From IMG/VR virus record IMGVR_UViG_3300009160_000130, positions 1 to 29,019 of that record: 29,019 nucleotides of DNA; one strand, 5' to 3'. Of this stretch, positions 1,280 to 20,942 are shown piece after piece. The stretch comes from a virus. The first letter of the stretch is position 1. The number at the start of each line of letters is the position of its first letter. Position numbers and translations under genes: made by a program. Under the pieces are notes generated by a model. That model worked only from the letters and a program-made list of their open reading frames with translations, was not told the origin of the DNA and ran no database searches.

Positions 1280-1556
1280 AGACATGATGACTCAGGCTGA
1301 GCTGGAGCGCCGAGTATCGGCCATGTCAGACGAAGAGCAGTCGCATTTCAAACTTCTCATACACAAACTCGTGATGTGTTATGGCGACGGCAACGCGCAG
1401 GGCGTGGTCATAGTGGGCAGGGCAGAAGATCAGTTAGCAGGCGTCGTCACCCTAAACTGTGACGAGATGGAGGCGTCGCAACTGATGTTGGCGGCAAACG
1501 ATTTTTTCGGCTTTCTAAACACCCTAGGCGCACCGCCCAAGGAGAACTTTAATTGA
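1269..1556 (+). CDS. Hypothetical protein (95 aa)
   Basis: GTG 1269 is chosen over ATG 1236 because of the AGGGAG site at 1256-1261, which leaves an 11-base overlap with the VRR-NUC gene. The product is acidic and mostly helical at the start (MMTQAELERRVSAMSDEEQ), followed by a probable beta segment (GVVIVGR...GVVTLNCDE) and a C-terminal helix (ASQLMLAANDFFGFL). No catalytic motif is recognised. It is translationally linked to the polymerase: its stop overlaps the polymerase TTG start in a TTGA arrangement, and the polymerase Shine-Dalgarno lies inside its last codons. This suggests a replication-associated role, but that is inference only. Confidence 0.65.
   Translation: MAFEDMMTQAELERRVSAMSDEEQSHFKLLIHKLVMCYGDGNAQGVVIVGRAEDQLAGVVTLNCDEMEASQLMLAANDFFGFLNTLGAPPKENFN
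1539..1544 (+). promoter_or_regulatory. Ribosome binding site for the TTG-started polymerase
   Basis: A full AAGGAG lies eight bases before TTG 1553. No ATG or GTG with a comparable site exists before the first exonuclease motif, so this site decides the unusual start. Confidence 0.7.
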
Positions 1557-3538
1557 GCGCACCATACGACAAGATCATCACAGTCGACTTCGAGACCTAT
1601 TGGGACACCAAGATAGGGTACACCCTAACCAAGATGACAACAGAGGAGTACATACGCCATGACTTATTTCACGCGTTTGGATGCTGCGTTCATGAGTTCG
1701 GAACTGACAGCCCAGTTACGTGGGTTAGAGGAGAGGGACTACGTGAATACTTTTCTGGAATCGATTGGGGACGAACCGCAGTGCTTGCGCACAACGCACA
1801 GTTCGATGTATCCATTATGGAGTGGGTCTACGATACACATCCAGCCTTCATCTTCGACACGCTATCAATGGCGCGAGCTCTCAGAGGCGTTGAGGTTGGC
1901 AACAGTCTCGCCAAACTTGCAATCGATTTTGGTCTTCCCGCCAAAGGGACAGCCGTGTATTCGACAAATGGTGTGGCCGAGCTGGACGAGGTCATGGAAT
2001 CTGAACTTGCAGACTATTGCAAACACGACGTACATCTATGCGAACGAATCTTTGATCGACTGGTCAAAGGGTATCCACCAAAGGAGCTTCGACTCATCGA
2101 CATGACGCTGAAGATGTACACGCGTGCGTGCTTGCAACTTGACCCCAACATGTTAACTGACGCCATACTAGAGGAGAAAGAAACCCGTGAAGCACTATTA
2201 CAGAAACTCCGCGTGGACGAGACTGCACTTGCGTCGAACCCGCAGTTTGCAGCACTACTTGAGGCCCTCGGTGTGGTTGCCCCAAGGAAGATCAGTAAAA
2301 CTACAGGGAAAGAAACACTTGCGCTGGCTAAGAATGATGCCCTCTTTCAGGCGTTACTCAACGGTGAACGTGAGGACGTTGCCCTTCTTTGTGAAGCGCG
2401 TCTTAGGGTTAAGTCGACCACCGAGCGCACAAGGGCTCAGAGATTCCTCGACATTAGTAAACGCGGCACCCTACCAGTTCCTCTCTCGTACTATGGTGCG
2501 CAAACTGGCCGGTGGACAGCAAGCCGTGGCTCGGCCATCAACATGCAAAACCTCAAGCGAGGTTCGTTCTTGCGCAAAGCAATTATGGCTCCCAAAGGAC
2601 ACCAACTCGTTGTGGGGGACTTATCGCAAATTGAACCGCGAGTACTCGCGTGGCTTTCGGATTACGAAGACATGCTCGACATCTTTCGGTCAGGTGGTGA
2701 CCCTTACGCCGCGTTCGGTGCGCAGATGTTTAACATACCCGGACTTACTAAGGAGAGCCACCCTGACCTACGGCAGTCTGCAAAAAGCGCTTTGCTTGGC
2801 TGCGGTTACGGACTTGGATGGGCTGCCTTTGCGTCGCAACTACTTACAGGATTCTTGGGCGCACCACCACAGCGATATGACTTGGCCTTTGCGAAGAAGC
2901 TGGGCGTCACGCAACAAGCGGCTGAAAAGTTCCTAGACTGGGAAGTGAACGTCGAGAAGCTCCAAGCCATACCGCACACATGTTCGACAAGAGAGCTAGT
3001 CATCCACTGCCTAGCGGCCAAGGCCATCATCGACAAGTACAGGGCTACGGCTACGCCCGTGGTGGACTTCTGGAACCTACAGACAGAGCTGATACACGAG
3101 TCTCTTTACAAAGGGAAGGAGTACAAGCACAAGTGTCTGACGTATCGTAAGGGCGAGATCGTTCTGCCATCTGGCATGAAGTTGTTGTACCCGTACCTAC
3201 AGATCAGGCGCCATACAGACGAGAAAACAAAAAAAGAACAGGTTGAGTGGACTTACGGCGAAAATCGTACTAAGATATACGCAGGGAAAATAACCAACAA
3301 TGTCACGCAGGGCGTAGCGAGATGCGTGATGACAGATGGGATGGTACGAACTGCAAAGAGATACTTTGTGGCGGGAACAGTACATGACGAGCAGATCGTT
3401 GTGGTTCCTGACGCAGAGGTGGAGGACGCTAAGACTTGGGTCTTAGCGCAGATGACTGTGGAGCCGCCTTACATGCCGGGCATTCCATTGGACGCTGACG
3501 GTGGCGCGCACCGTCGTTATGGGTTAGCTAAAAACTAG
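1553..3538 (+). CDS. polA: Family A DNA polymerase with 3'-5' exonuclease (661 aa)
   Basis: This is the replicative DNA polymerase, of the phage Pol I type with no 5' nuclease domain. The proofreading exonuclease comes first: Exo I is VDFETYWD (D12, E14), Exo II is AHNAQFD near residue 85, and Exo III is YCKHDVHLCE near 160. The polymerase domain has motif A GDLSQIEPR (D356), an O helix R407-x3-K411-x7-Y419-G, and motif C VHDEQ (H611, D612, E613). All catalytic acids are present and the length is normal. The residue equivalent to E. coli Phe762 is Leu415, a variant known from virioplankton polymerases. The start is TTG with a strong AAGGAG, and the stop overlaps the next gene's Shine-Dalgarno. 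No thioredoxin-binding insertion like that of T7 is obvious. Confidence 0.96.
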   Translation: MSAPYDKIITVDFETYWDTKIGYTLTKMTTEEYIRHDLFHAFGCCVHEFGTDSPVTWVRGEGLREYFSGIDWGRTAVLAHNAQFDVSIMEWVYDTHPAFIFDTLSMARALRGVEVGNSLAKLAIDFGLPAKGTAVYSTNGVAELDEVMESELADYCKHDVHLCERIFDRLVKGYPPKELRLIDMTLKMYTRACLQLDPNMLTDAILEEKETREALLQKLRVDETALASNPQFAALLEALGVVAPRKISKTTGKETLALAKNDALFQALLNGEREDVALLCEARLRVKSTTERTRAQRFLDISKRGTLPVPLSYYGAQTGRWTASRGSAINMQNLKRGSFLRKAIMAPKGHQLVVGDLSQIEPRVLAWLSDYEDMLDIFRSGGDPYAAFGAQMFNIPGLTKESHPDLRQSAKSALLGCGYGLGWAAFASQLLTGFLGAPPQRYDLAFAKKLGVTQQAAEKFLDWEVNVEKLQAIPHTCSTRELVIHCLAAKAIIDKYRATATPVVDFWNLQTELIHESLYKGKEYKHKCLTYRKGEIVLPSGMKLLYPYLQIRRHTDEKTKKEQVEWTYGENRTKIYAGKITNNVTQGVARCVMTDGMVRTAKRYFVAGTVHDEQIVVVPDAEVEDAKTWVLAQMTVEPPYMPGIPLDADGGAHRRYGLAKN

Positions 3539-7103: not shown

Positions 7104-8087
7104 ATGAGCAAAATTGCAATGTTCAACCCCTCAAACGTCCCTGCATTTGCTAAGAATGCAGTCCTGTCAGCAACCACGCTAGCCTTGGCGGGCGGTGCAG
7201 GTTCTGGCGGTGGCATGAAGCGCGTCTCTATCAAGGGCGGTGTGTTCAGACTGCTGTCTAACGGCAAAGAGATTGCATCGATTGATGAGCGTCACTTGGA
7301 TGTGATCGTGGTCAAGGCTGCCCCCAAGGTCAGCCGTATTTTCTACGCTGGTGGCTATGATAAAGATGCTGCAGCCGCACCCCCTGACTGCACATCTGCC
7401 GATGGTGAGAAGCCTGACGCTAACGTGAAGAACAAGCAGTCATCAAGCTGCGCTACATGCCCACAAAACATCGCTGGGTCTGGTAATGGTCAAAGCCGTG
7501 CATGCCGCTACCAACAGCGCTTGGCTGTTGTGTTGGCTAACAACCCCGATGGTGATGTGTTGCAAGTGACTCTGCCTGCGACATCCATATTCGGCAAGGA
7601 AGACGGCGAGAAGCGCCCACTGCAAGCATACGCTCGCTACATGGCCGCGCAGACACCGCCTGTTAACTTGGACGCCATCGTCACGCGCATGAAGTTTGAT
7701 ACACAAGCTGAGTCTCCAAAGATTATCTTTGCGCCTGTGCGTTGGTTGACCGATGAGGAGTATGAGTCTGCACAGAACCAAGCCAACTCTAAGGATGCAG
7801 AGAAGGCTGTAGCTGTTACCCCTGCCTTTGCTGATGGCGTTGCCTCACCCGCACCGCTTGCCCTGTCTGGCAAAGCGCCTAGCACCAAGACCCTTGGTGA
7901 TCTGATGGATGAGGACGATGCTGAAGCTATTGCTGAAGTCAAAGCAACCAAGGCCAAGAAAGCCAAGGCTGTTGAGGTGGAGGCCGAAGAAGAACCCGAA
8001 GTGCGCAAAGCCGCACCCAAGGTTGAATCCGTTCCAGCCAAGAAGAACAAGCTGGCCGACATCGTTGCTGATTGGGACGATGAGTAA
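7104..8087 (+). CDS. Candidate ssDNA-binding protein with zinc cysteines (327 aa)
   Basis: I do not recognise a named family, but several traits fit a phage ssDNA-binding protein. A basic beta-rich core comes first (MKRVSIKGGVFRLLSNGKEI, HLDVIVVKAAPKVSRIFY). A cysteine cluster follows (C96, C116-x2-C119, C134) in a loop with CPQN and GSGNGQ...CRY, which would bind zinc as T4 gp32 does with a different pattern. After about residue 240 the chain is a low-complexity Ala/Lys/Glu linker, and the end is an acidic tip (DIVADWDDE) like the tails that recruit replication partners. The position between a promoter and the primase-helicase supports this. A general replication accessory factor is the alternative. 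The start ATG 7104 has GGAA upstream. Confidence 0.75.
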   Translation: MSKIAMFNPSNVPAFAKNAVLSATTLALAGGAGSGGGMKRVSIKGGVFRLLSNGKEIASIDERHLDVIVVKAAPKVSRIFYAGGYDKDAAAAPPDCTSADGEKPDANVKNKQSSSCATCPQNIAGSGNGQSRACRYQQRLAVVLANNPDGDVLQVTLPATSIFGKEDGEKRPLQAYARYMAAQTPPVNLDAIVTRMKFDTQAESPKIIFAPVRWLTDEEYESAQNQANSKDAEKAVAVTPAFADGVASPAPLALSGKAPSTKTLGDLMDEDDAEAIAEVKATKAKKAKAVEVEAEEEPEVRKAAPKVESVPAKKNKLADIVADWDDE

Positions 8088-8219: not shown

Positions 8220-8513
8220 ATGGCCTACTCACAAAAAATCATTGACGAAGTAGCGAAGACCCCCAAGTCTCTGGGCAACCAGCTTGGGCGTTGGGCGATC
8301 CATCTTGACTTTCCGGTCACGAAGATTGCCTATGCGCTTGGCGTCTCTCGGCAGACTGTCTACAACTGGTTTACAGGCACGGAAGTGTTTGTGGCCTATC
8401 GTAACCGCGTCGAATTCTTAACCCACATAATGAAGACCTCACCCACAGCAGATGAGGCATGGAGAAAAATATGTACGGAATACAACCTCGATCCCTCACC
8501 ACGAAAGAGCTGA
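8220..8513 (+). CDS. Helix-turn-helix DNA-binding protein (97 aa)
   Basis: The core is a clear helix-turn-helix at residues 31-53: FPVTKIAYALGVSRQTVYNW, followed by FTG. The recognition helix is SRQTVYNWF. The rest is helical and fits a small Cro/XRE-like or Fis-like regulator, with length in the normal range. No ribosome binding site precedes ATG 8220, and the A-rich AACAAAACC stretch follows the structured element at 8098-8203, so expression may depend on that element or on initiation at an unstructured region. The 3' end overlaps the next gene by 43 bases. Its target could be the element itself or phage promoters; neither is shown by the sequence. Confidence 0.8.
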   Translation: MAYSQKIIDEVAKTPKSLGNQLGRWAIHLDFPVTKIAYALGVSRQTVYNWFTGTEVFVAYRNRVEFLTHIMKTSPTADEAWRKICTEYNLDPSPRKS

Positions 8514-8656
8514 TTGCTTTCAGCGCAGAACTGATTGAACTTCCAAGAGGGTTACCCAAGGACTTTCAGCTTGAACTCATCAGACGTTTGGAAGCGTTGA
8601 CGCCCCACAATGAAGCATTGCCAATAGATCCCAAGCAATTAGATCTGTTCCAGTAA
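8471..8656 (+). CDS. Small protein with a C-terminal beta-clamp-binding motif (61 aa)
   Basis: I start this gene at ATG 8471, six bases after GGAG (8461-8464). ATG 8459 in the same frame is possible and would add four residues. The body is helical (TTKELIAFSAELIEL, KDFQLELIRRLEAL), and a short linker follows (TPHNEALPIDPK). The protein ends QLDLFQ, where Q56-L57-D58-L59-F60 is an exact match to the bacterial sliding-clamp-binding consensus QL(S/D)LF. A free C-terminal position is where host clamp-binding proteins often carry it. The likely role is to recruit or block the host DnaN clamp. It sits just upstream of the primase-helicase, and the phage polymerase itself ends without such a motif. 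Confidence 0.75.
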   Translation: MYGIQPRSLTTKELIAFSAELIELPRGLPKDFQLELIRRLEALTPHNEALPIDPKQLDLFQ

Positions 8657-8673: not shown

Positions 8674-11565
8674 ATGACTCCGCTTGAGTTTTTAGCGGTT
8701 GTTCTGCCGCCGCCAGAATTTGGCCGGTATTGTGTGGCGGAACTTACTAAAGCGAAAGAGCACGTCTTTGTTGACGCACTCGATCAAACATCAGCGCATA
8801 TCAAGCGCTGGCACAGCAGTAAGTTGGATGTTTACTTTGCCTTGGCTACCTTTGGCATTGAAGACAACCGGCAAGCTACCAATGCGCGGTATGTGAAATC
8901 ACTGTTCATTGACATGGATGGGTACGCATCGAAGAAAGATGCCGCCTTTGCGCTCAATGCGTTCTTGGAGAAGACAGGCTTAGGAGCCTTGGGTACGCCC
9001 TATGTTGTTGGTTCTGGTGGCGGTTTGCACTGCTACTGGCCACTGCATGCGGCTGTTCCGGTGGACTCTTGGAAACCTGTGGCCGAGAACTTCAAGCGCC
9101 TGTGCAAACAGGAGAGCTTGGCGATTGACATGACTGTAACGGCTGATGCCGCCCGCGTCTTGCGTGTGCCCGAGACAACCAACTTCAAGAAGAAGTACGC
9201 AACGCCGCGCCCCGTGCGCATACTGACTGAAGGCGACAACTTTGATTTTGATGCCGTGGCTACCCTCATCAGGGAGAAGCTGTCTGGGTCAATCTACGAG
9301 CCGCAGGCCGTGCCGAAACTAGATTTGGCCGGCACACGCCCATCTGCAGCGCCTACAGCGACTAGCGTCAAACTGTTTGAGAACAGCATAACCAAGTTCA
9401 AACCAATTTGGTTGGCGACTCAGCAAGGGCGTGGCTGCGGGCAGTTGGGGCACTACGTAGAACATGCGACAGAAGAGGGCATGGAGCCGATCTGGAGGGG
9501 CTTACTCTCATGGACTAAGGTCTGTGAAGACGGCAACAAGGCGGCTGTCTGGCTTAGCCAGATGCATCCCTACGAGCCTGAGCGCATGAATCAAAAGCTG
9601 CAAAGCATCAAGGGCCCATACCCCTGTATCAAGATGGACTCAGAGAACCCCGGCGTGTGCCCGACATGCCCGCACTGGGGAAAGATAACCAACCCCCTGA
9701 TCCTTGGACGTGAGTTGTCTGTGGAAGTGGAGGAGAAAGAAATTGAGGTCAAGCTAACGAGTGACAGCACAGTCACGGAGAAAGAAGTCGTCAAAGTCAT
9801 GCGCCCAACACCGCCTCGTGGTTATGCCTATGGCACCAATGGCGGCATCTTTATGGAGCGTATGGTCGAAGACGACGAAGGCGTTAAGACAAAGAAGCAA
9901 GTGATGCTGTTGCCCTACGAATTGTTCGTGGTGGACATACTCAACAGCAACAACGACCACACTGTGCACATGATTGCGCTCAGACCCGAAGGGGCAATCA
10001 ACGTAGTTATGCCGCAAAGAGCCGTGGTCAGCAAGGACGAGACAGTCAAAGCACTGGCGAGTCAAAACATCGTGGCCTCTTTCGGCCACAACAACGACAA
10101 AAACCTTTTTGAATATGTGAGGGCATGCGTGGAAGAATCTAGCACTAACAAAACCCCAATCAAAGTTCCAGACAGCTATGGTTGGCAACCTGACAACTCG
10201 TATGTATTTGCGGGTCGTATCTTTACTAAGGGTAAACCCCCAGTCAAAGTCCCAATGCCGGGCTTGGAGAACATCACCAAGAACACTGAACCGCGTGGCA
10301 CTATGGAGGCTTGGCGTGCGTTCATCGACATGTTGATTGCCAAGAAGATGTGGGATCACCTAGCCGTTTTGCTTGCCGGTGCTGGCGCTCCTTTCATGCG
10401 CTTCACGGGTATCTACGGCATGACCTACCACTGCGCCAGTACCGAATCTGGTACGGGTAAGACGCTGGCGCTGGAGGCTGCAGCTTCGGTCTGGGGACAC
10501 CCCACCCACTACCGCACAGGCAAGAGCACATCGCCTGTTGCTATGCAACAACGCTTAGGTCTGCTCAACAGCCACCCGCTTATCACAGATGAGATCACAT
10601 CCAAGAACCGAGACGACTTCGAGTGGTTGCCTGAGTTCCTGCTGGACATGACCGAAGGCCGTGGCAAAGAGCGTATGGAGTCTGGCTCCAACAAAGAGCG
10701 CCTGAACTTGTCGACATGGATGACCAATGCGTTGATGTCTTCCAATACCCACATCGTCGACTACTTGACTGGTGGGCGTACCCACTCATCGGAAGGCGAG
10801 TTGCGCCGCTTGCTGGAGTTTGTGCTTGAAGACGAGTTAAAGTGGGAGCCACATGAGATTGAGATCATCAAGTCTTTACAGCACAACTATGGCGTAGCGG
10901 GTTACGCCTTGGCTCAGTACCTTGCCGACAACGTTGACCAGTTCCCTAAGATAGTTGGCGAAGCTGTTGCGGGTATGTATACTGAGTTCAAGGCAACCAA
11001 CGATGAGCGCTTCTGGATGGCTGGCGTTGGGGCTTCTATATGCGCCCTTAAAGCGTTTAAAGAGTTGGGCGTAGCCGACATACCCTACCGCCACATTCTG
11101 AACTCCTACAAGAAGGCTGTGGACTATATGCGAGCCAGTATGAAGAGCAGCGTGCGCACCGCTGTGGATGTACTGAACGCCTATACCCGTGACAACTACG
11201 GCAGTTTTGTGGTGATTAAGCCTAGCAAGGGCGGCCTCATGGCTGAACTCGGTAGCGGCAAGGACATCGATCTGTCGATTACACGCAACAAGGTGTTCGG
11301 GCGGGTGGAGCATGAACCTATCCCCAACCACATCGACTACTTTATTGAGGAGCAACTGCTCAAGGCGTACTGCGCCACTATGAGCTTTGGGTATTCGTCA
11401 TTTAAGCGCCAGCTTGAACAACTGTACAACGTGGAGTATCTTAAGAAAGATATGATGGCCAAGACCAAGGGGCCGCAGATGCGGGTCACAGTTATGAAAA
11501 TCAGACGCGAGATTATCGAAGCCGATGAAGTACTCCTCACTGCGCCTTCCGTGGGAGAAAGTTGA
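8674..11565 (+). CDS. PrimPol-helicase fusion: primase and superfamily 3-like/DUF927-type helicase (963 aa)
   Basis: This is a two-domain replication protein. The N-terminal part is an archaeo-eukaryotic primase (PrimPol) domain: D80-x-D82 in LFIDMDG, H119 in the GSGGGLHCYW loop, and a third acidic patch in IDMTVTADAARVLR (D152, D158). A Cys-containing linker (CPTCPH near residue 330) may bind zinc. The C-terminal half is a DUF927-like helicase: Walker A ESGTGKT (K596), Walker B LITDE (D639, E640) and a GRGKERM segment with a likely arginine finger. It would prime and unwind DNA for the family A polymerase. ATG 8674 follows AAGGA (8664-8668). The fusion length is normal for phage PrimPol-helicases. 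Confidence 0.9.
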   Translation: MTPLEFLAVVLPPPEFGRYCVAELTKAKEHVFVDALDQTSAHIKRWHSSKLDVYFALATFGIEDNRQATNARYVKSLFIDMDGYASKKDAAFALNAFLEKTGLGALGTPYVVGSGGGLHCYWPLHAAVPVDSWKPVAENFKRLCKQESLAIDMTVTADAARVLRVPETTNFKKKYATPRPVRILTEGDNFDFDAVATLIREKLSGSIYEPQAVPKLDLAGTRPSAAPTATSVKLFENSITKFKPIWLATQQGRGCGQLGHYVEHATEEGMEPIWRGLLSWTKVCEDGNKAAVWLSQMHPYEPERMNQKLQSIKGPYPCIKMDSENPGVCPTCPHWGKITNPLILGRELSVEVEEKEIEVKLTSDSTVTEKEVVKVMRPTPPRGYAYGTNGGIFMERMVEDDEGVKTKKQVMLLPYELFVVDILNSNNDHTVHMIALRPEGAINVVMPQRAVVSKDETVKALASQNIVASFGHNNDKNLFEYVRACVEESSTNKTPIKVPDSYGWQPDNSYVFAGRIFTKGKPPVKVPMPGLENITKNTEPRGTMEAWRAFIDMLIAKKMWDHLAVLLAGAGAPFMRFTGIYGMTYHCASTESGTGKTLALEAAASVWGHPTHYRTGKSTSPVAMQQRLGLLNSHPLITDEITSKNRDDFEWLPEFLLDMTEGRGKERMESGSNKERLNLSTWMTNALMSSNTHIVDYLTGGRTHSSEGELRRLLEFVLEDELKWEPHEIEIIKSLQHNYGVAGYALAQYLADNVDQFPKIVGEAVAGMYTEFKATNDERFWMAGVGASICALKAFKELGVADIPYRHILNSYKKAVDYMRASMKSSVRTAVDVLNAYTRDNYGSFVVIKPSKGGLMAELGSGKDIDLSITRNKVFGRVEHEPIPNHIDYFIEEQLLKAYCATMSFGYSSFKRQLEQLYNVEYLKKDMMAKTKGPQMRVTVMKIRREIIEADEVLLTAPSVGES

Positions 11566-11731
11566 GAAAGGGCAGGGGTTCTTTATCCCCTGCCTAGACA
11601 CCGAAGCCATGAAAGAGTGGGGCTTGAAGAAAGCCTTCTCCTTGCGGATACTAGACGCCCACGCTAGCGTGGGCATCCTTGACGGCAAGCTTGGCGTTAT
11701 GTTTTACCGGAAGCCTCAATCCGTTTCATAG
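11525..11731 (+). CDS. Small hypothetical protein at the end of the left arm (68 aa)
   Basis: The frame starts at ATG 11525 inside the last 41 bases of the primase-helicase gene and runs 35 bases into the end of the convergent giant gene. The product has LRLPWEKVEKGQGFFIPCLD, a compact pattern seen in small phage proteins that begin with a strand and a WEK turn, then a helix (TEAMKEWGLKKAFSLRIL) and a final strand (GILDGKLGVMFYRK). The ribosome binding site is weak. The pattern of hydrophobic strands and the position argue for a real gene, but no function is known. The palindrome at 11657-11674 is inside its coding sequence. Confidence 0.55.
   Translation: MKYSSLRLPWEKVEKGQGFFIPCLDTEAMKEWGLKKAFSLRILDAHASVGILDGKLGVMFYRKPQSVS
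11657..11674. repeat. Perfect 18-bp palindrome near the convergence of the two arms
   Basis: GCCCACGCTAGCGTGGGC reads the same on both strands. It lies 23 bases before the stop of the giant - strand gene and inside the last + strand gene, where transcription from both arms meets. It could be a protein-binding site or the stem of a bidirectional terminator. No T-run follows on either side, so intrinsic termination is not supported. Confidence 0.5.
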
Positions 11732-14700
11732 CCGCTTCAAATTTCTCCGACAGGGCTTGACGGGCTTCGTCAATCCTATCTATGCGAGCACGCTTCTCGG
11801 CGCCTGTCATCTTCTCCATACCCGTTATACGTTCCTCATCTGAGCGCAAGCGTCCCATCTGCGTCTTGTACTGCGCGGCTAATTTTGCAGCCACAATCTG
11901 TGTGCGGTTGTCTGCCAAAAATTCTCTGGCTTCTTCCACGCGTCCTTGCTTGAGCATGCTGTCGTAAGAGTTCTTGGCTTGCGTAGCTTCCGTGGCCATC
12001 CGATACATTACGTCGGCATCAGCCCCACCAAACTTCTTCTGGAACGAGCTACCAATAAAGGGCAAGTCTGTCACACGCTTCTCAGGCGCTTCGCCTTTGC
12101 TCTCCTTGCGGAACAAACCATCAGCAGCGCCCGCAATAATTAGCGGCAACTGACCAAAGTAGCCTGTGGCAAGATGCTCAATCTGCACAGGAGACAAGAA
12201 AGGTAACGCCTTACTCATAGCCTTAGCCGCCTCTGTTGTGGCTGCTCCAAAGCGTTCTTGTGGCGTCTTGCTCTCCATACGAGCCGACTCAATGTTGTTG
12301 CCGCTGAAGAAGTTCTTATTGGTAAAGACTTCAAACGCTGGCTTGATAGCCTGCGGCATAAACTTAGACGAGTAGCCCGGTACTGACTGTAAGAACATAT
12401 CGCGCAGACCGTCAAACTGTTGCTGGCCATCGGTCTCGGCTTTCATAGCGTCAACTGCCGCTACAGCCAACGAGAAGAACCAGCCAGCCTCGTAGGGAAT
12501 TGGTAGCTTGAACGGCTCTTCAACGCCCGGCACAGGGATGAAGAAGTTGCTGTACTTGTCCTTTGGCTTGGCACGTTTGAAAGCTTCGTCGTCCTCCATC
12601 GCCATGGCGTAGACCACGCCTGTAGCAACCAACAGCATGGCGTTGTTGAAGAACTTCTGCTTGATCTTCTGCTGCTCTTCAAAAGGCATCTGGCCTGTGG
12701 CGGCTTTATACAGTACGTTTAAGCCTTGGATCTGCGCATTGAAGAAGGGGATCAAACGACTGGCGTACTGCACTGTGGGCGACAGACCGCGCTTGTAGAA
12801 GTTCATAGACTCCATCGTGGCCATATCAGCCTCGACTTCAGACAATCCGTTCTTACGTGCGTTCTCGTACACCAACGCGCGGGTGGCAGCATCGGCACGC
12901 ATCGCGGCTCTGTCAAGCCCCGCAAACAACTGGTCAACAGCGCCTTGGTTGTTACCTGCCAACTGCAAAGCCATCTTGGCAATGTCGTCTGGGTCGCCTG
13001 TGAAAATACCGCTCTGGACTAAGCCACGTTTAATAAGCTCTTCGCTTGCCGCGCTGGTGCCGCGACTCATCCGAACAAACTCACGCCCAGCTTTGGCCAC
13101 CGCTGTAAGAGGCCCGTAGTTTAGACCGCCCGTAAACGATGCCGCCATTGGGTCACGAACCAACTGACGCAAAATATAGATTGGCATCCGAGTAACGCCA
13201 GAGCGCAAGATGTCGCCGGCTATGCCGCCAATCTTTAAGAACGCTGGGAGCGTCAGGTGCGCGCCTTCCAAACTCTTCACAATCAACTCGGCAGGGATAC
13301 CACCCATGATGGTGTCATCGGTCTTAACGCGTACCCAGCGCTCGCCTGTATCTTCAGGGTCTTTGGGATCTGGCTCTTGGTTAAAACGAATAATGTCCGC
13401 GCCAGCTACACCTTTTCCTTTGTGGATCGGCATGGCGTTGGTTGGCTTGCCTTCTTTATCCAAGGGGCCCTTGCCTGCACCAACAGATTGGAACGCATAG
13501 GCTACGTTTCTGGCGGCTAAGTTAGTCAGAGCCTTGTCTGTAATAAGCAACGTGTTGCGTGGAAGCGACTCTGTCAGGGGCAGGATGCGGGTCTCGCCGC
13601 CCTTGAGTTCTGCCAAGTAGGGCTGGTATCTAACATCGCCGATGTTGATAGTAACCTCATCACTAAAGACAAGATCAGCCATCCCGTTTTCACGGACGCG
13701 ATAGAACGGAACATAGTCACCGTCTTTAAGCAGCTTGGCTGCCGTTTCTTTGGGTATTGCGCCAGTCGAAGCCAAGAACTTAATCAAGCCTGCGTTGTAC
13801 GCGTTGTACGTACTTCGCACAACTTCCAAAGCTTTTTTTAGTTCTGGGTTTGCGTTGACGTCAGCCATAGCCGCTTTGAGGTCTGCCTCGGTAATCCCCA
13901 GATCGCCCAAGTCAAGCTTGGCTAAACCCTTGTTAGCCGCACGTTGTGCGATCATGTACGTGGTAGCAAGGTCAACGCGGCCTCTGGCGTTGCCGCCCGG
14001 GATGCGCCCTATGGCGTCAAAGACATCCTTGGCACTGTTCTGTCCCGAAGACTTAATACCAAAGAAACCCTTCTCGTCTGTGTACAGTTCCATTGGGCCG
14101 TTCATCAGCGTGGAGCTAACGACAGCCATCTTCTGGTCAGCTTTGGTCACGCTGTACATAGCCTGCACAAAGTTCTTGGTGTCCCCCATTTCCTTAGCGC
14201 CAGCCTTCAGCGCTTCGCGCAAACCAGCACGCATATCCACCAAGTTCATCTCGGTCTCAAGCGCAATGTTTCTACCAAGGCGGGCACTGAAAGACTTAGG
14301 CTGTGCCACAACGCGGCTAGCCAGATCAGTCAGCGCATCGTCTGAACCAAACTGTGCCTTGCGGGAAAACAACAGACCTTCAGACTGACCGACAGGTTGC
14401 AGATTCATTGCCAGTATTTCAGGAGCTTGGTCAATGTAAGCGCGTTCGGTAAACTCACCATCTTCGTTGCCGCGTTCAATGACGTCAATTCCAGCGGCTT
14501 TCAGTTCTTCTGTTGTTTTTTTGATGCCCAATTCTCTGCGCATTTTGTAAAACAAACTGTTGGCAAAAAAACGATCGTTGCCTTTGTACGTAGACTTCGT
14601 ACCGTATTTTTCAAGCAACGCGTCAAGTTGAGGGCGCTCACCAATCGTCATGACTGAGTCAACCCTATAGACTTTTTCACGGGGGATTGCGTCAAGGGAA

Positions 14701-17700
14701 CGATACAGTTGTCCTGTCTTGGGGCGTTCTGTTAACCCTTTAATTTTTCCAATATCGAGTGTTTGCGCAGCTTTTAATTGGTTTTTTGCTATTTGCAATT
14801 CTTCACGGGCGCTCTCAATGCTGTCAGGCTTGGCTTTTCTTTTTTCTCGGCTTGCCAAAGTCTCTGTTTGATCTTTAACATTTCGTTCTGCTTTTTTAAG
14901 CAGTTGATCCAAATACCTCCTTGCGCCTTTGTTGTTTTGCGGGTCAAGTGTTCCGCCCTGCGCAACGTCCTGCAAATAATTTGTTAATAAATTGCTCTCA
15001 TAAATACTCTGCAAATCCGCCACCGGCGTAACACGCGGCCTGTTGGGATCCATGTACTTGGCATCCATAGACCTATAGTCTTGATACGATAAGGAGCCGT
15101 ACCCGGTCTCGTTTGCGGCTTTGCCAAAGGGTATAGCATGCTGATAATACTCAGCGTAAGTTTTGTCGGGAGTAGTGTACGGACCCGCGCCAATCGAGTT
15201 CTCGTTTGCAAAACGTAAATCAAACATGCCCTCGCCAGCACCCGCATACTTTGTGTCAAACGCCGTAAAAGTAGCATCGCTGCCGTGCCATGTACCGCGA
15301 ATCTCCAACTGGGCAGCACCATAAGCAAGATTAACCAAGTCGCCGGCTTTAAGGTTCTTTGAATCAATACCAAAAGCAGAAAGCGCTTTTTTCAGCGTGT
15401 CGATTACCAAGCGTAACCAGTTTGCAATCGGTGAACCTTTAGAGCCCAACGCTGTTGGCCTAACGCCTGCTTTGATCGCTTCTTCAACTGCGTAAGCTAG
15501 CAACTCATCATCAAACTGTTCTTTGGACGTTTGCGCAGCTTCCACACGGGCAAGCGCAGCCTTAGCCACACGCGCTTCTACGGAGTTATCATTTAACTTA
15601 GACCAGTTGCGTACAGCGTTGACTAAGCTTTTGTATTGCCCAGCATTGAAAAGGTTTTTAAAACCAAGGTGCACACCGACTTCGTGTAGCAGTATGCCTA
15701 AGCCGTCCCCCTTGGCAATGTTGTTGGCAAACATAAACGCTTTGCCTGTCCTAGGATCTACAAAAGCTTTAGCGTCTGTAGGAATGTCGCCGGCTTCTGG
15801 TGGTTTGGCTCGTTTCACAGTGTACGCATCTTGCAGATCAGCAAAACTAGCACTGTCTAAAAACTCTTCAACACTGTTGAATAGCTCAACGCGGCCTTTA
15901 GTAAGCCCCGCCCCACCCAGCGCAGTGTCAATTTCTTTCTGTAATTCCGCGACACTCAAGCCGTTAACAGCCGCGCCTCGAGAAAACTCCAGTCCGCCTT
16001 GCTCATCAAAGTAAACATCTTTCACCGCACCTTCTGCGCGAGTGGTTTCGCCGTATGCTTCTTCTTCAGTCACCTTACGACGGCGGCCGCGAGTTTTGGT
16101 TTCTTTCTCAACGGGTTCAGCAGCGGCTTCTTCTGCGGCTCTGATGTCAGCTTCGTTGGTTGACTGATACAGCGCTTTCTTAACGCCTTCAAGTTCTTGA
16201 CGGACAGCACGGCGCTCGTTCTCGTAGTCTTCAACTTCTTGTTTAGCGTTTACGATCTCTTCAAGCGAAGGCAGGTTGCTTCGGCCAGTAGCAGGGCGCG
16301 CTGCTCTTGCTTGTAGTGTAGTGAGCCGATCTTTAGCGGCTTCTAACTGGTTGGTCAGCTCTTCGTCACGGCGCTCCAAAATTACTTGAAACTCTGCTTG
16401 ACGCTCGGCTTCAATTGCTGCTAGTTGTGCTTTGGTCAAGTTCTTCTCACCAGCCGCACGTTTTTCTGCCAGTGCGTTGGCCTCGGCCACTGCTTGCGCC
16501 ACTGATGGTGCTTTGATATTGCGCTGCTCAACCAACGGCTGTTTGGTAACGCCCGGTGTGCGTTTAGACTCTGTTGTACCAGCACGCAGTTTACTTGGAG
16601 CGCTTGTAGCGCGACGTGCGCCAGCAGATACACGGCCTTTTAGTGCAAGGTCTAACTTGGCTTTTTCTTCTGTGCCAACAGATATCTCTGTATTAACCTT
16701 GTCAATTTCTCCGTTTAGACGTGCAACAGCTTTGGTTTTACCTTCCTTGATAGCGTCGTCACGCTCGGCAGTCAGCGCCGCTAAACGATCTGTTGCTTTG
16801 CCCAGCTCTTGCACTTGCTCAATGTACTGGTCAATTGCGTCTTGTTCTTCTGGCGTAGCCTCCCGTACCGCGGGCGCTTCGGCTAGGTTAGTTCTAAGCG
16901 GCATGTTGCGTGCACGCATAAAATTAATTGCTTCTTCAAGAGATATTTTGCGTACAGACAAACGGCTTTGGAGACGGATAGCTGCCCCCAAACCTTTGAA
17001 CGCTTGTACGTTTTGCTCACCGCCTACATAGGAGCCAGACTTCTTTCTGGCCGCAGTCACTTTGGCCGTAGCTTCGGCCAACTGCTTGTCGATACTGCCT
17101 AGTTCTAGAATCAAAGACAGCAAAGGCTTGTTGTACAACTCGTTATTGTATTTAACTTCGCTTGCCGCATCGGCAGTAAGCCCACGCTCACGGGCATCAC
17201 GTTCGGCAGCACCAAGTGCGCGGATTTGCACACCCTTACCAAAACCGGACATTGCCACGTTCCAACGCCTTGTGCGTTCGTCAGAGATTTGTCTCTCCAA
17301 CTGCTGGACATTTGCGTCTTTAGCGCCTTGCACGGCTTGGGTTTTGTCCGCCTCGGCCTGACGCACCTTGTTGTCAGCTTCTGTAATTTCTGCTTGCGCT
17401 GTGCGAATTGTTTCCTGCAGCCTTGCAATTTCATTTTTAGCAGACTCGTTGGATTTTTCTAGCGGATCGACTGTGGCTTTGAGTTCAGCTAAACGCTGTT
17501 CACCCACCAACACTTTAATCTGTGTACGCACTAAATCCAGAGCGGCTTTAGTCTGGGTGTATTCGGCTTTGGCTTCTTCATGCAACGCAATCAAATCGTC
17601 CAACTCTTTGAACATTGCAATTTCTGCGGCGCCGCCTCTGGCGCGTACGCCGGATCGATTGGCTTCTTTAATCAGCTCTTCTTTAGCCTGCTCGTACGAT

Positions 17701-20700
17701 TTAATACGGGCGTTTAGATCGCTGACGCTGAGCTTCAGATTGTTCATCTTCAGCGCAAGGTTGTCTGTGTTGGTTTGGAACGAAGCCAACTCACCGTTTT
17801 CTTTTAAGAACTTAGTCCAGTTCTTAATTTTGCTCATACGTGCAGTAGTGTCTTTGCTTTCTTTAAGCAGTTGTTTCAAACGCGGCAAAGCTCTGGCCAA
17901 GAACGCACGCACAGGAGCCAAATCTTTCTCAGACTGCTTCATGTCTTGTTTTAGCTTACGAACGTACGGGCTATTCATGAAGCGCTGGAACGACTCAACG
18001 TCAGGTCTTGCACCAATATCTAGGCTTGGGCCAGCTTCAATACCACGGCGCTCAGCTTTCTGTACGCGACTACGCTCATCGGCTGCACCAAACAAAGGCA
18101 ACTGACCAGCTTGCTCATCACGAACAGTCTCAGCCAGTTTAACCAACTGCTCCAATTCATTTTGCAAAGACAGCGGTGCGGCTTCAGCACTCTTACCGCG
18201 AATCGTTCCGGACACCAGTACTTGTTTGCCAGTGACGGGGTCGGTGCGGTACACAGGTTTGTTAATATCCTGCGCACGTTTCTCAACCGTGGCTCGACCG
18301 GGCACACCTTGTGTGCGTTCCTCTTCTTCTGGCTGGGCTACAAAGCCGGGCAATTTGCCGGGTTTGCCTGTACTCTCAAGACGCTCCCGTTGCGCGTTCT
18401 GCTCCATCTGAGACACAGACGCGGCTTGTCCGGGGGTAGCGCTAGTCTCTCCCTGCTCGTACTTAAATGCTTCGGTTGGCGTGGTAGTGCTAGCCTGTGC
18501 TTGGGATTCTTTTGTTGGTGGGAATGTCTTCAACAATGTAGGGCGATCAGCGCCTCTTCGTGCCACACCCTCTTCACCATTCTCAATCTTGGTCAGTTGT
18601 TGGTCGAGCAGTGTAAGGAAGCCCTGCGACTGCGACACATTCTTAAGCAGCCCCCTGTCTGCAACAACTTCACCCGCTATATTTTCTTGATTGGCTCTGC
18701 CCGACGCTTCTTGTTTGAGCGTCATGTCTGCTTCAGGAATTACCTGCTCAGCGCGGCGCAAGAAGGCCGCAGCTTCTGGAGACAGCTTGTATGTGGACAG
18801 CACTCGGTCAATACGATCACGCAAAGATTCGGCAGTAAGTACTTCGCCAGTGCCCTCGGCTCGTGGGTGCAATTTAAACTCAGCACCGGGTACGCGTCTA
18901 AGTACTCGCTTTTGCTCGCCTTCTGGAACAACTTCTTCGGCTGTAGGCAGTGTGCCTTCTTCTAAGGGTATACCCTGTAATCGTTGCTGCAACTGACCAA
19001 ACGCAGCGGATGTCGATGGTGGAGCTTCTTCGTTTCCAAACAACCCCAAGTTCTCCGTCATAGGAGACGGAGCGTTTTTCATGCGCTGCAGTGCCTGCAT
19101 CTCTGGCGCCAGCCTAACTTTACGGTCTGCTTCTTCAGCAGCGGCTTGGTCTGCGGCACGGCTTTGTTCAAGTGCGGCTTGCTCTTCCTCTTCAACAGTT
19201 TGCAAACGCGTCTGGTTAGGTTGCGCTGCTTTTACTGCGTTTGCGGCACGAAGTTCTTCTAACCGCTGTTCAAGACTAGCAAAAACCAAATTCTGCTGGC
19301 GCTTGGTTAAACCGGGCAAATAAGCGCGTAGCTGCAAAGTTTGCTGCGCCATAGCAGGGTCGGTCATTAAATAACCAACGTAATCTTTAGCGGCTAGTTC
19401 TGGTTCTTTTTCATTAGACAGTTGCTGGTCATTAGCCAACTGTATTTGTTTCGTAGCGTAATCCACTACTTTTTGTTTTGGATTGGCTATCTGCTGTTCA
19501 TAGTAGCCTTCAAGATCGGGCGCTGCGGCTTTTGTTTTTGCCGTTGAGACTTCGCCGGTTTGTTCCAACATATAGTCAAACGGAGACATGCCAGCAACAC
19601 GCGCTTTCTCTGCCTCTTGCTCACGCATTGGTTTAGTGCGGCGGTACTCAGGAACAATTTCTTGCAGTTGTTTTTGCAAAGCTTGAAGCGAGTCTTGCGC
19701 GTCTTTGTACTCCGCTTTCTCAACAGGCGTAGCGTTAGCGCCGGGCTTTTTAAGCGCCGTCTTCTGCGTTTGAAACTGCGCTAGTAAATCATCGTACTGT
19801 TTGCCAATATCAATAGCGTACTTGGGTGTCTGTTTTTCAGCTTCCAGAGCCTTTGCGTCAGCTTCTTCTTCAGCTTTCTGTTGGGCAGCAGTTAGTTGTT
19901 CTTGTTGCAAACGCAATGCACGCTTTTGTTGTTCGGCTTCTTTGGCTTTCTCTTCAACTTCTGCACGGGCACCAGAGCGTTCAGACACGCGACCAACGGC
20001 GCCTAAAGGCGCAAGCAAACCTACTTGATAAGCGGTTTCGCCATACTCTTTCATGGCGTCAGGAGATGTCAAAGACAGCCCTGCTTGGTAACGCTCCAAC
20101 ATCTGCTGGGCAATTTCTGTGGGGATCTCGGCTAACGCGCCTGTGGCCAGACCTTTAGACAACGTAACGGCTAGGCGTTCTTCGGCTAACTTGGCAACCT
20201 GAGCCGCGCTCCGTCCGAGTAGTGCCTCGGCGGGGATACCAGTTAATTTACTGACAATTTTGCCGCCAAACGGAATAAACGTACCGGCTACATCGAGCGC
20301 TCCAGAGGGAATCGCTGTGCCCACAGCTTTGCGCATATCAATACTGATAGGCTCTCCGGCACGTTCCTGTTCCGCAGCTTGACGCTCTACGTTTTGACCC
20401 AAAGCTTGTGTAGTACCGGAAGCCAACGCGCCTAGAGCACCGCCAACCAACTTGCCCTTTGTACCAAACGCACCGCCAAGCATGGAACCCAAACGGCCAC
20501 TGGCGGCAAGAGACGCAATGTTTGCGCCTTGCTCTGCAATGGCTCCGGGGATTTGACTAACGGCTTCGCCTGCGGCTGGCAGGATACCGCGCTCTTCGTA
20601 GAGCTTCTTGACTTTCTCAAAGTCTGCGCCTTCTTCGTAACGGGAACTAATGTCTCGGCTACGGGCTAGGCCTGCTTTAGCGGCTTCTTCAGCGTCACCT

Positions 20701-20909
20701 GTCAGAGATGCGCCAGCGGTGCGGCCAGAGGAAATTAAAGACTCAAGACCCTTGCTTGCTTGGGCAAGTATGCCTTTTTTACGTGCAGGCTTCTCGGACT
20801 CAAAAGCGTCTGGGTATCTTTCTTTAGCCAGCGCCATGGCTTCGTCATACCCCATGCTGCTGGGAACTTTAAAGGAAGTGCCGTCTGGAAGGGGTAGGTA
20901 TTTAGCCAT
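11697..20909 (-). CDS. Giant polyvalent virion protein with zincin, ADP-ribosyltransferase-like and LPD38-like regions (3,070 aa)
   Basis: I start at ATG 20909 (MAKYLPLPDG), a common opening for phage polyvalent proteins; a GTG at 20930 would add seven unlikely residues. The N-terminus has Gly/Ala-rich hydrophobic stretches (about 100-260). Residues about 330-1,500 are Ala/Glu/Lys coiled coil. A zincin motif H1742-E-x2-H1746 (LLHEVGVHLGF) follows, then an ADP-ribosyltransferase-like segment from about 1,870 (TWHGS, H1875, then GAGPYTTPDKTYAEYY). From about 2,550 the chain resembles the polyvalent domain LPD38 (LRQLVRDPMAASF, IPFFNAQIQGLNVLYKA). Such proteins are packaged and delivered with phage DNA, where the enzymatic domains modify host targets. 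Clamp-like NLGLF (620-624) and QLPLF (936-940) occur in the disordered part. No Shine-Dalgarno is visible. Confidence 0.88.
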   Translation of the reverse strand: MAKYLPLPDGTSFKVPSSMGYDEAMALAKERYPDAFESEKPARKKGILAQASKGLESLISSGRTAGASLTGDAEEAAKAGLARSRDISSRYEEGADFEKVKKLYEERGILPAAGEAVSQIPGAIAEQGANIASLAASGRLGSMLGGAFGTKGKLVGGALGALASGTTQALGQNVERQAAEQERAGEPISIDMRKAVGTAIPSGALDVAGTFIPFGGKIVSKLTGIPAEALLGRSAAQVAKLAEERLAVTLSKGLATGALAEIPTEIAQQMLERYQAGLSLTSPDAMKEYGETAYQVGLLAPLGAVGRVSERSGARAEVEEKAKEAEQQKRALRLQQEQLTAAQQKAEEEADAKALEAEKQTPKYAIDIGKQYDDLLAQFQTQKTALKKPGANATPVEKAEYKDAQDSLQALQKQLQEIVPEYRRTKPMREQEAEKARVAGMSPFDYMLEQTGEVSTAKTKAAAPDLEGYYEQQIANPKQKVVDYATKQIQLANDQQLSNEKEPELAAKDYVGYLMTDPAMAQQTLQLRAYLPGLTKRQQNLVFASLEQRLEELRAANAVKAAQPNQTRLQTVEEEEQAALEQSRAADQAAAEEADRKVRLAPEMQALQRMKNAPSPMTENLGLFGNEEAPPSTSAAFGQLQQRLQGIPLEEGTLPTAEEVVPEGEQKRVLRRVPGAEFKLHPRAEGTGEVLTAESLRDRIDRVLSTYKLSPEAAAFLRRAEQVIPEADMTLKQEASGRANQENIAGEVVADRGLLKNVSQSQGFLTLLDQQLTKIENGEEGVARRGADRPTLLKTFPPTKESQAQASTTTPTEAFKYEQGETSATPGQAASVSQMEQNAQRERLESTGKPGKLPGFVAQPEEEERTQGVPGRATVEKRAQDINKPVYRTDPVTGKQVLVSGTIRGKSAEAAPLSLQNELEQLVKLAETVRDEQAGQLPLFGAADERSRVQKAERRGIEAGPSLDIGARPDVESFQRFMNSPYVRKLKQDMKQSEKDLAPVRAFLARALPRLKQLLKESKDTTARMSKIKNWTKFLKENGELASFQTNTDNLALKMNNLKLSVSDLNARIKSYEQAKEELIKEANRSGVRARGGAAEIAMFKELDDLIALHEEAKAEYTQTKAALDLVRTQIKVLVGEQRLAELKATVDPLEKSNESAKNEIARLQETIRTAQAEITEADNKVRQAEADKTQAVQGAKDANVQQLERQISDERTRRWNVAMSGFGKGVQIRALGAAERDARERGLTADAASEVKYNNELYNKPLLSLILELGSIDKQLAEATAKVTAARKKSGSYVGGEQNVQAFKGLGAAIRLQSRLSVRKISLEEAINFMRARNMPLRTNLAEAPAVREATPEEQDAIDQYIEQVQELGKATDRLAALTAERDDAIKEGKTKAVARLNGEIDKVNTEISVGTEEKAKLDLALKGRVSAGARRATSAPSKLRAGTTESKRTPGVTKQPLVEQRNIKAPSVAQAVAEANALAEKRAAGEKNLTKAQLAAIEAERQAEFQVILERRDEELTNQLEAAKDRLTTLQARAARPATGRSNLPSLEEIVNAKQEVEDYENERRAVRQELEGVKKALYQSTNEADIRAAEEAAAEPVEKETKTRGRRRKVTEEEAYGETTRAEGAVKDVYFDEQGGLEFSRGAAVNGLSVAELQKEIDTALGGAGLTKGRVELFNSVEEFLDSASFADLQDAYTVKRAKPPEAGDIPTDAKAFVDPRTGKAFMFANNIAKGDGLGILLHEVGVHLGFKNLFNAGQYKSLVNAVRNWSKLNDNSVEARVAKAALARVEAAQTSKEQFDDELLAYAVEEAIKAGVRPTALGSKGSPIANWLRLVIDTLKKALSAFGIDSKNLKAGDLVNLAYGAAQLEIRGTWHGSDATFTAFDTKYAGAGEGMFDLRFANENSIGAGPYTTPDKTYAEYYQHAIPFGKAANETGYGSLSYQDYRSMDAKYMDPNRPRVTPVADLQSIYESNLLTNYLQDVAQGGTLDPQNNKGARRYLDQLLKKAERNVKDQTETLASREKRKAKPDSIESAREELQIAKNQLKAAQTLDIGKIKGLTERPKTGQLYRSLDAIPREKVYRVDSVMTIGERPQLDALLEKYGTKSTYKGNDRFFANSLFYKMRRELGIKKTTEELKAAGIDVIERGNEDGEFTERAYIDQAPEILAMNLQPVGQSEGLLFSRKAQFGSDDALTDLASRVVAQPKSFSARLGRNIALETEMNLVDMRAGLREALKAGAKEMGDTKNFVQAMYSVTKADQKMAVVSSTLMNGPMELYTDEKGFFGIKSSGQNSAKDVFDAIGRIPGGNARGRVDLATTYMIAQRAANKGLAKLDLGDLGITEADLKAAMADVNANPELKKALEVVRSTYNAYNAGLIKFLASTGAIPKETAAKLLKDGDYVPFYRVRENGMADLVFSDEVTINIGDVRYQPYLAELKGGETRILPLTESLPRNTLLITDKALTNLAARNVAYAFQSVGAGKGPLDKEGKPTNAMPIHKGKGVAGADIIRFNQEPDPKDPEDTGERWVRVKTDDTIMGGIPAELIVKSLEGAHLTLPAFLKIGGIAGDILRSGVTRMPIYILRQLVRDPMAASFTGGLNYGPLTAVAKAGREFVRMSRGTSAASEELIKRGLVQSGIFTGDPDDIAKMALQLAGNNQGAVDQLFAGLDRAAMRADAATRALVYENARKNGLSEVEADMATMESMNFYKRGLSPTVQYASRLIPFFNAQIQGLNVLYKAATGQMPFEEQQKIKQKFFNNAMLLVATGVVYAMAMEDDEAFKRAKPKDKYSNFFIPVPGVEEPFKLPIPYEAGWFFSLAVAAVDAMKAETDGQQQFDGLRDMFLQSVPGYSSKFMPQAIKPAFEVFTNKNFFSGNNIESARMESKTPQERFGAATTEAAKAMSKALPFLSPVQIEHLATGYFGQLPLIIAGAADGLFRKESKGEAPEKRVTDLPFIGSSFQKKFGGADADVMYRMATEATQAKNSYDSMLKQGRVEEAREFLADNRTQIVAAKLAAQYKTQMGRLRSDEERITGMEKMTGAEKRARIDRIDEARQALSEKFEAAMKRIEASGKT

Positions 20910-20942
20910 AAAAATTAAATTGTAGACCACACATTTGTAGCG

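Follow-up and report, generated by a model that had tools for sequence, protein, structure and literature searches.

A predicted clamp-binding tail on a small hairpin protein encoded ahead of the primase-helicase in uncultured phages

The window analyzed here, a 29,019-nt stretch of viral DNA (IMG/VR record IMGVR_UViG_3300009160_000130), encodes a miniprotein at 8471..8656 on the + strand, stop codon included. Translation of this open reading frame (ORF) gives MYGIQPRSLTTKELIAFSAELIELPRGLPKDFQLELIRRLEALTPHNEALPIDPKQLDLFQ, a product of 61 residues whose last residues are QLDLFQ, in agreement with the preliminary description, which had also claimed an exact match to QL(S/D)LF; QLDLF indeed fits that pattern exactly. 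An alternative in-frame ATG at 8459, 12 nt upstream, would yield a 65-residue protein and is less likely to be used, as it is incompletely conserved. Since GGAG lies 6 nt 5′ of the ATG at 8471 and the orthologue at locus L003 has TTG where the window has the upstream ATG, 8471 is the better, and likely, start of the miniprotein.

The gene lies in a replication operon. The 3′ end of a helix-turn-helix (HTH) protein gene (8220..8513, +) overlaps it in another frame, and 17 nt separate its stop codon from the downstream gene for a DUF927 primase-helicase (8674..11565, +; Pfam PF06048, 3.7e-22; PHROG primase/helicase). The order HTH–miniprotein–primase, with the overlap retained, is identical in 32 of 32 loci read, so that the position between HTH regulator and primase-helicase noted previously for the window holds well beyond it. 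Across the window's clade, the DNA of the overlap (8457-8513 in the window) is nearly invariant, as expected from dual coding. A programmed −1 frameshift fusing the HTH protein and the miniprotein is geometrically possible at the A run there (8457-8513) and is not needed. The operon neighbor at 7104..8087 (+; phrog_27714, function unknown) encodes a protein with an acidic C-terminus (..ADWDDE), from which an SSB-like role might be guessed. In one sister lineage (L342, L343, L345 and L358), the SSB-like neighbors, encoded by the gene preceding the HTH gene (e.g., L342:3242-4570), have an acidic tail that contains ITKQPDLFE/D.

Neither a clamp domain (PF02767) nor a clamp-loader domain (PF13177) was found in the window, and motif scans found no clamp-binding motif (CBM) in the ORF of its family A DNA polymerase (PolA; 1553..3538, +; PF00476), bearing out the earlier statements that the window encodes neither clamp nor clamp loader and that the phage polymerase lacks the motif. 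Among records of the window's own and sister lineages, whose completeness is uncertified, a DnaN clamp was found in none of 41 (many of them 58–68 kb) and a clamp-loader domain in none of 9. CBM-like sequences occur elsewhere in these genomes. The SNF2 helicase of sister lineages has QADLF-type matches; these fall within the folded part of the protein and were considered fortuitous. In the window, a giant protein of 3077 residues (11697-20930, −) has QLPLF at residue 943, in a charged and probably disordered stretch (EQAGQLPLFGAADE); the giant proteins encoded by G002 and G009 also contain QLPLF, and G005 and G014 have QQDLF at a comparable place. The DUF3310 proteins of two relatives, at L148:8771-9076 (G001) and at about 17362-17607 in G009, begin with MTKPPIPTSDQLDLFHE.. 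and MIEVETQLELF.., placing QLDLF or QLELF at the N-terminus, and could represent a second clamp-docked phage protein in those relatives; the window's own DUF3310 protein (747-977) has no N-terminal motif.

Searches of Pfam, PHROGs and PDB sequences with the miniprotein and its alignments gave no convincing match, and a Foldseek search of the PDB with its predicted fold gave nothing significant (best E 3.0). No miniprotein homologue was found in cultured phages; the nearest cultured relatives of PolA and the primase infect Pseudomonas and Rhizobium. The DUF927 modules of Pseudomonas phage Rollin and Rhizobium phage RHph_TM3_14A share with the window a related primase, an SNF2 helicase, a VRR-NUC protein and neighboring genes; unlike in the window, their primase has no miniprotein gene in front of it. 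The more distant DUF927 lineages, in which 78 loci were read together with Rollin and RHph_TM3_14A, contained no such gene. From the kind of metagenomes in which it occurs, the phage group is probably a freshwater one.

Four protein-led scans of IMG/VR, from which orthologous proteins were extracted without any motif requirement, yielded 273 loci and 90 distinct orthologues, 29 representatives of which are 38–90% identical to the window protein. All but one of the 90 end in Q-x-x-L-F followed by 0–4 residues, and this retention (89/90) excludes chance; the sole exception (L188/L256) is truncated before the motif. Seventy-two of the 89 read QL[DENK]LF or are QIDLF-like. Position 2 is mostly L, and also Q, I, R, A or P, while position 3 is D, E, N or K; the residues after the motif are variable, numbering 0 to 4 or more (L, K, LKN, LDTK). 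Shuffling residues 15 to the end of the window protein produced a C-terminal QL[SD]LF with a frequency of 0.01% and a C-terminal QxxLF with a frequency of 0.46%. Six-frame translation of related loci gave 18,082 ORFs, and outside the family the C-terminal matches with a relative were limited to two copies of one other small protein. A separate 73-residue protein ending in TQLPLFS is encoded at 13527-13748 in G005 and at L164:17504-17869, where the ORF is longer.

Substitutions were counted by parsimony on an independent tree of 112 loci that used only the primase, with rows required to carry the motif, a requirement that dropped only the truncated form. Synonymous changes numbered 17 at Q56, 19 at L59 and 6 at F60, so that the three contact residues together record 42 synonymous and 0 nonsynonymous events; the adjoining linker residues 44-52 record 120 and 202, respectively. 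By these counts, the tail of the window's clade is under purifying selection; its sequence fits the clamp-binding consensus. The nonsynonymous-to-synonymous event ratio of the miniprotein body (residues 15-55) is 1.12, whereas the HTH gene scores 0.43 and the start of the primase 0.61. As ratios of raw events rather than dN/dS, these values do not on their own demonstrate positive selection.

The bacterial CBM consensus is Q-φ-x-[L/M]-F, in which positions 1, 4 and 5 are critical, position 2 is tolerant with L best, and position 3 has a weak preference for D; QLDLF is the strongest and tightest known pentapeptide (PMC11139829; PMC12309361). The family obeys each of these published rules and conserves the Q-φ-x-[L/M]-[F/L] form that defines a CBM-bearing client, with 89 of 90 orthologues conforming and no nonsynonymous event at positions 1, 4 and 5. 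One locus, L445, carries instead the hexameric QLNLPL, which resembles the QLSLPL clamp motif of Hda. The predicted architecture suits this role as well. AlphaFold2 predicts a helical hairpin as the core, spanning residues 11-43 (8501..8599, +) with helices at 11-21 and 30-43, followed by a variable linker (residues 44-55; 8600..8635, +) and the QLDLF motif (residues 56-60; 8636..8650, +). Mean pLDDT is 92–95 for the hairpin blocks and 61–71 for the tail, and a confident hairpin with a low-confidence tail is what would be expected for a tethered linear motif. The C-terminal place, the variable linker and the lower pLDDT together put the motif in an accessible, flexible segment, as in a CBM-bearing clamp client. 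In the window's clade, the miniprotein thus characterized very probably binds the host clamp DnaN.

Two other readings of the tail fare worse against these data. Being hydrophobic and C-terminal, it could be a protease degron or have no function, which is barely credible: a C-terminal degron is rejected because variable residues, 0 to 4 or more, come after the motif, and Q is needed at position 1, while strong purifying selection on the motif excludes a lack of function. The QxxLF tail could also bind a non-clamp target, e.g., a similar pocket in a protein of the phage itself, and the motif-less homologues described below show that the system works without the motif. We consider this improbable, since every position matches the clamp consensus, L445 has the Hda-like QLNLPL, and a phage pocket would need to copy the preferences of the clamp.

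As the miniprotein had guided the first scans, they were repeated with the primase as query, free of motif bias. The resulting 101 dereplicated loci comprise 54 with the pentameric motif, one with the hexameric motif (L445), 39 with a motif-less miniprotein and 7 without the gene. The preliminary description had proposed a search for orthologues in the same position with a conserved C-terminus; such orthologues exist across the window's clade. It had also named orthologues without the motif as evidence against its reading, and these exist too, the motif being missing in 39 of the 94 miniprotein-bearing loci; the earlier interpretation is thus supported in part. A hidden Markov model built on the hairpin columns of the CBM-clade alignment recovers 38 of the 39 motif-less miniproteins at E<1e-3 (search space set to 1000). 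In one example, the motif-less gene overlaps the HTH gene, and the same hairpin is predicted for one such protein. By profile, gene overlap and predicted fold, the motif-less miniproteins are homologues of the CBM-bearing ones. They either have no tail or end in an acidic, aromatic one (DEGFxDGFxxGxxHAxDDFK), and no half-decayed motif was seen among them. The alternative acidic, aromatic tail (DEGFADGFADGIEHAN..) occurs in the motif-less miniproteins of L372-L451, e.g., at L375:2272-2484.

On the primase tree, the pentameric-CBM label changes 7 times by a quick method in which long branches were flagged, and at least 6 of these changes are forced by starred branches. For example, L580, which has the CBM, is placed among L581 and L583, which do not, and the primases of the three are very similar. 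The CBM-state switches between relatives may represent loss, gain or recombination. The presence of the hairpin in motif-less loci, together with the at least 6 changes of CBM state, points to a constant hairpin with the CBM as a swappable docking tail. It may be, at somewhat less than even odds, that this operon encodes an adaptor whose hairpin stays constant while closely related phages acquire, drop or exchange its host-clamp docking tail. Absence of the motif from 39 of 94 loci further implies that clamp binding belongs to particular lineages, as a module carried by a conserved hairpin, and is not what defines the function of the gene; membership among CBM-bearing clamp clients, as read from the sequences, would hold for motif-bearing lineages only. 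No convincing compensating terminal CBM was found elsewhere in four motif-less genomes; since these relatives have the same replication module with no tail and no obvious replacement, this replisome does not depend on clamp docking.

Based on these findings, we tentatively propose, at close to even chances, that the miniprotein is an adaptor linking a partner of its hairpin to the host clamp. The N-terminal two-helix hairpin, kept in all homologues, would bind a partner that is probably encoded in the same phage replication operon, and the CBM of the flexible C-terminal tail would insert into the cleft by which the host β clamp (DnaN) binds proteins. The partner would thereby be docked on the host clamp at phage forks, which amounts to recruitment rather than inhibition. 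Persistence of the hairpin without the tail in 39 loci indicates that it has a job of its own, and the adaptor reading explains both parts, core and tail. It is further supported by the conservation of the motif, the fixed operon place before the primase, the absence of a phage clamp from the 41 records and the CBM-less PolA. The fast-changing body, however, would also fit a host-directed inhibitor. Such a host-takeover protein would fill the client cleft of the clamp, displace Pol III and other clients and stop host replication, while the phage itself uses its clamp-independent PolA. QLDLF being the tightest known pentapeptide and the body changing faster than its neighbors (1.12 versus 0.43 and 0.61) both speak for it, and there are precedents in Twort gp168 and G1 gp240, which bind host DnaN, N4 gp8, which targets HolA (PMC3594737), and SocB, which acts via a CBM. 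Nonetheless, we regard inhibition as the less likely reading, though as the main and a serious rival: some members have weaker-looking motifs (QQNLF, QRDLF), and 39 of 94 loci retain the hairpin core but lack the motif, so clamp inhibition cannot be the only role of the gene.

The strictly preserved five-residue tail, present in about half of the family and matching the tag by which bacterial proteins attach to the replication clamp, suggests that these phages either block the host clamp or use it as a docking site for a product of their own replication genes. To our knowledge, no phage protein has been demonstrated to engage the canonical CBM pocket by an adaptor tail of this kind; a search of the open-access literature found no phage protein using that pocket, which is not proof of absence. 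If the adaptor reading is right, it would describe a phage route onto the host clamp via the canonical client pocket, occurring in a common group of uncultured phages, and the family would constitute a set of naturally selected clamp ligands. Such tail changes, if real, would amount to an on/off series set up by nature, from which the influence of host-clamp docking on phage replication could be read, and the tail-plus and tail-minus relatives would allow a direct test of its role.

The miniprotein is reminiscent of established CBM clients such as PolC, Pol II, UmuC and Hda, in which Q-x-x-L-F is often found in a flexible terminal tail; it differs from them as a 61-residue phage protein without a polymerase or AAA+ domain, whose binding is predicted. 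Staphylococcus phage Twort gp168 and phage G1 gp240 are likewise phage proteins, and they bind host DnaN. However, the site taken by gp168 is the DNA channel of the clamp rather than the client pocket, and its binding prevents loading (PMC11139829), so that the mechanism of the miniprotein, which has a pocket motif, would be distinct. SocB of Caulobacter, a small toxin that uses a CBM to bind the clamp and so blocks elongation (PMC9690074), is similar in being a small CBM-bearing protein; it is a chromosomal toxin with an antitoxin, whereas no such partner was seen beside the miniprotein. Finally, insertion-sequence transposases have a β-binding motif near the C-terminus that is thought to have arisen repeatedly (PMC4549789). 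The miniprotein, also a mobile-element protein with its motif near the C-terminus, differs in having no transposase domain and in its place within a phage replication operon.
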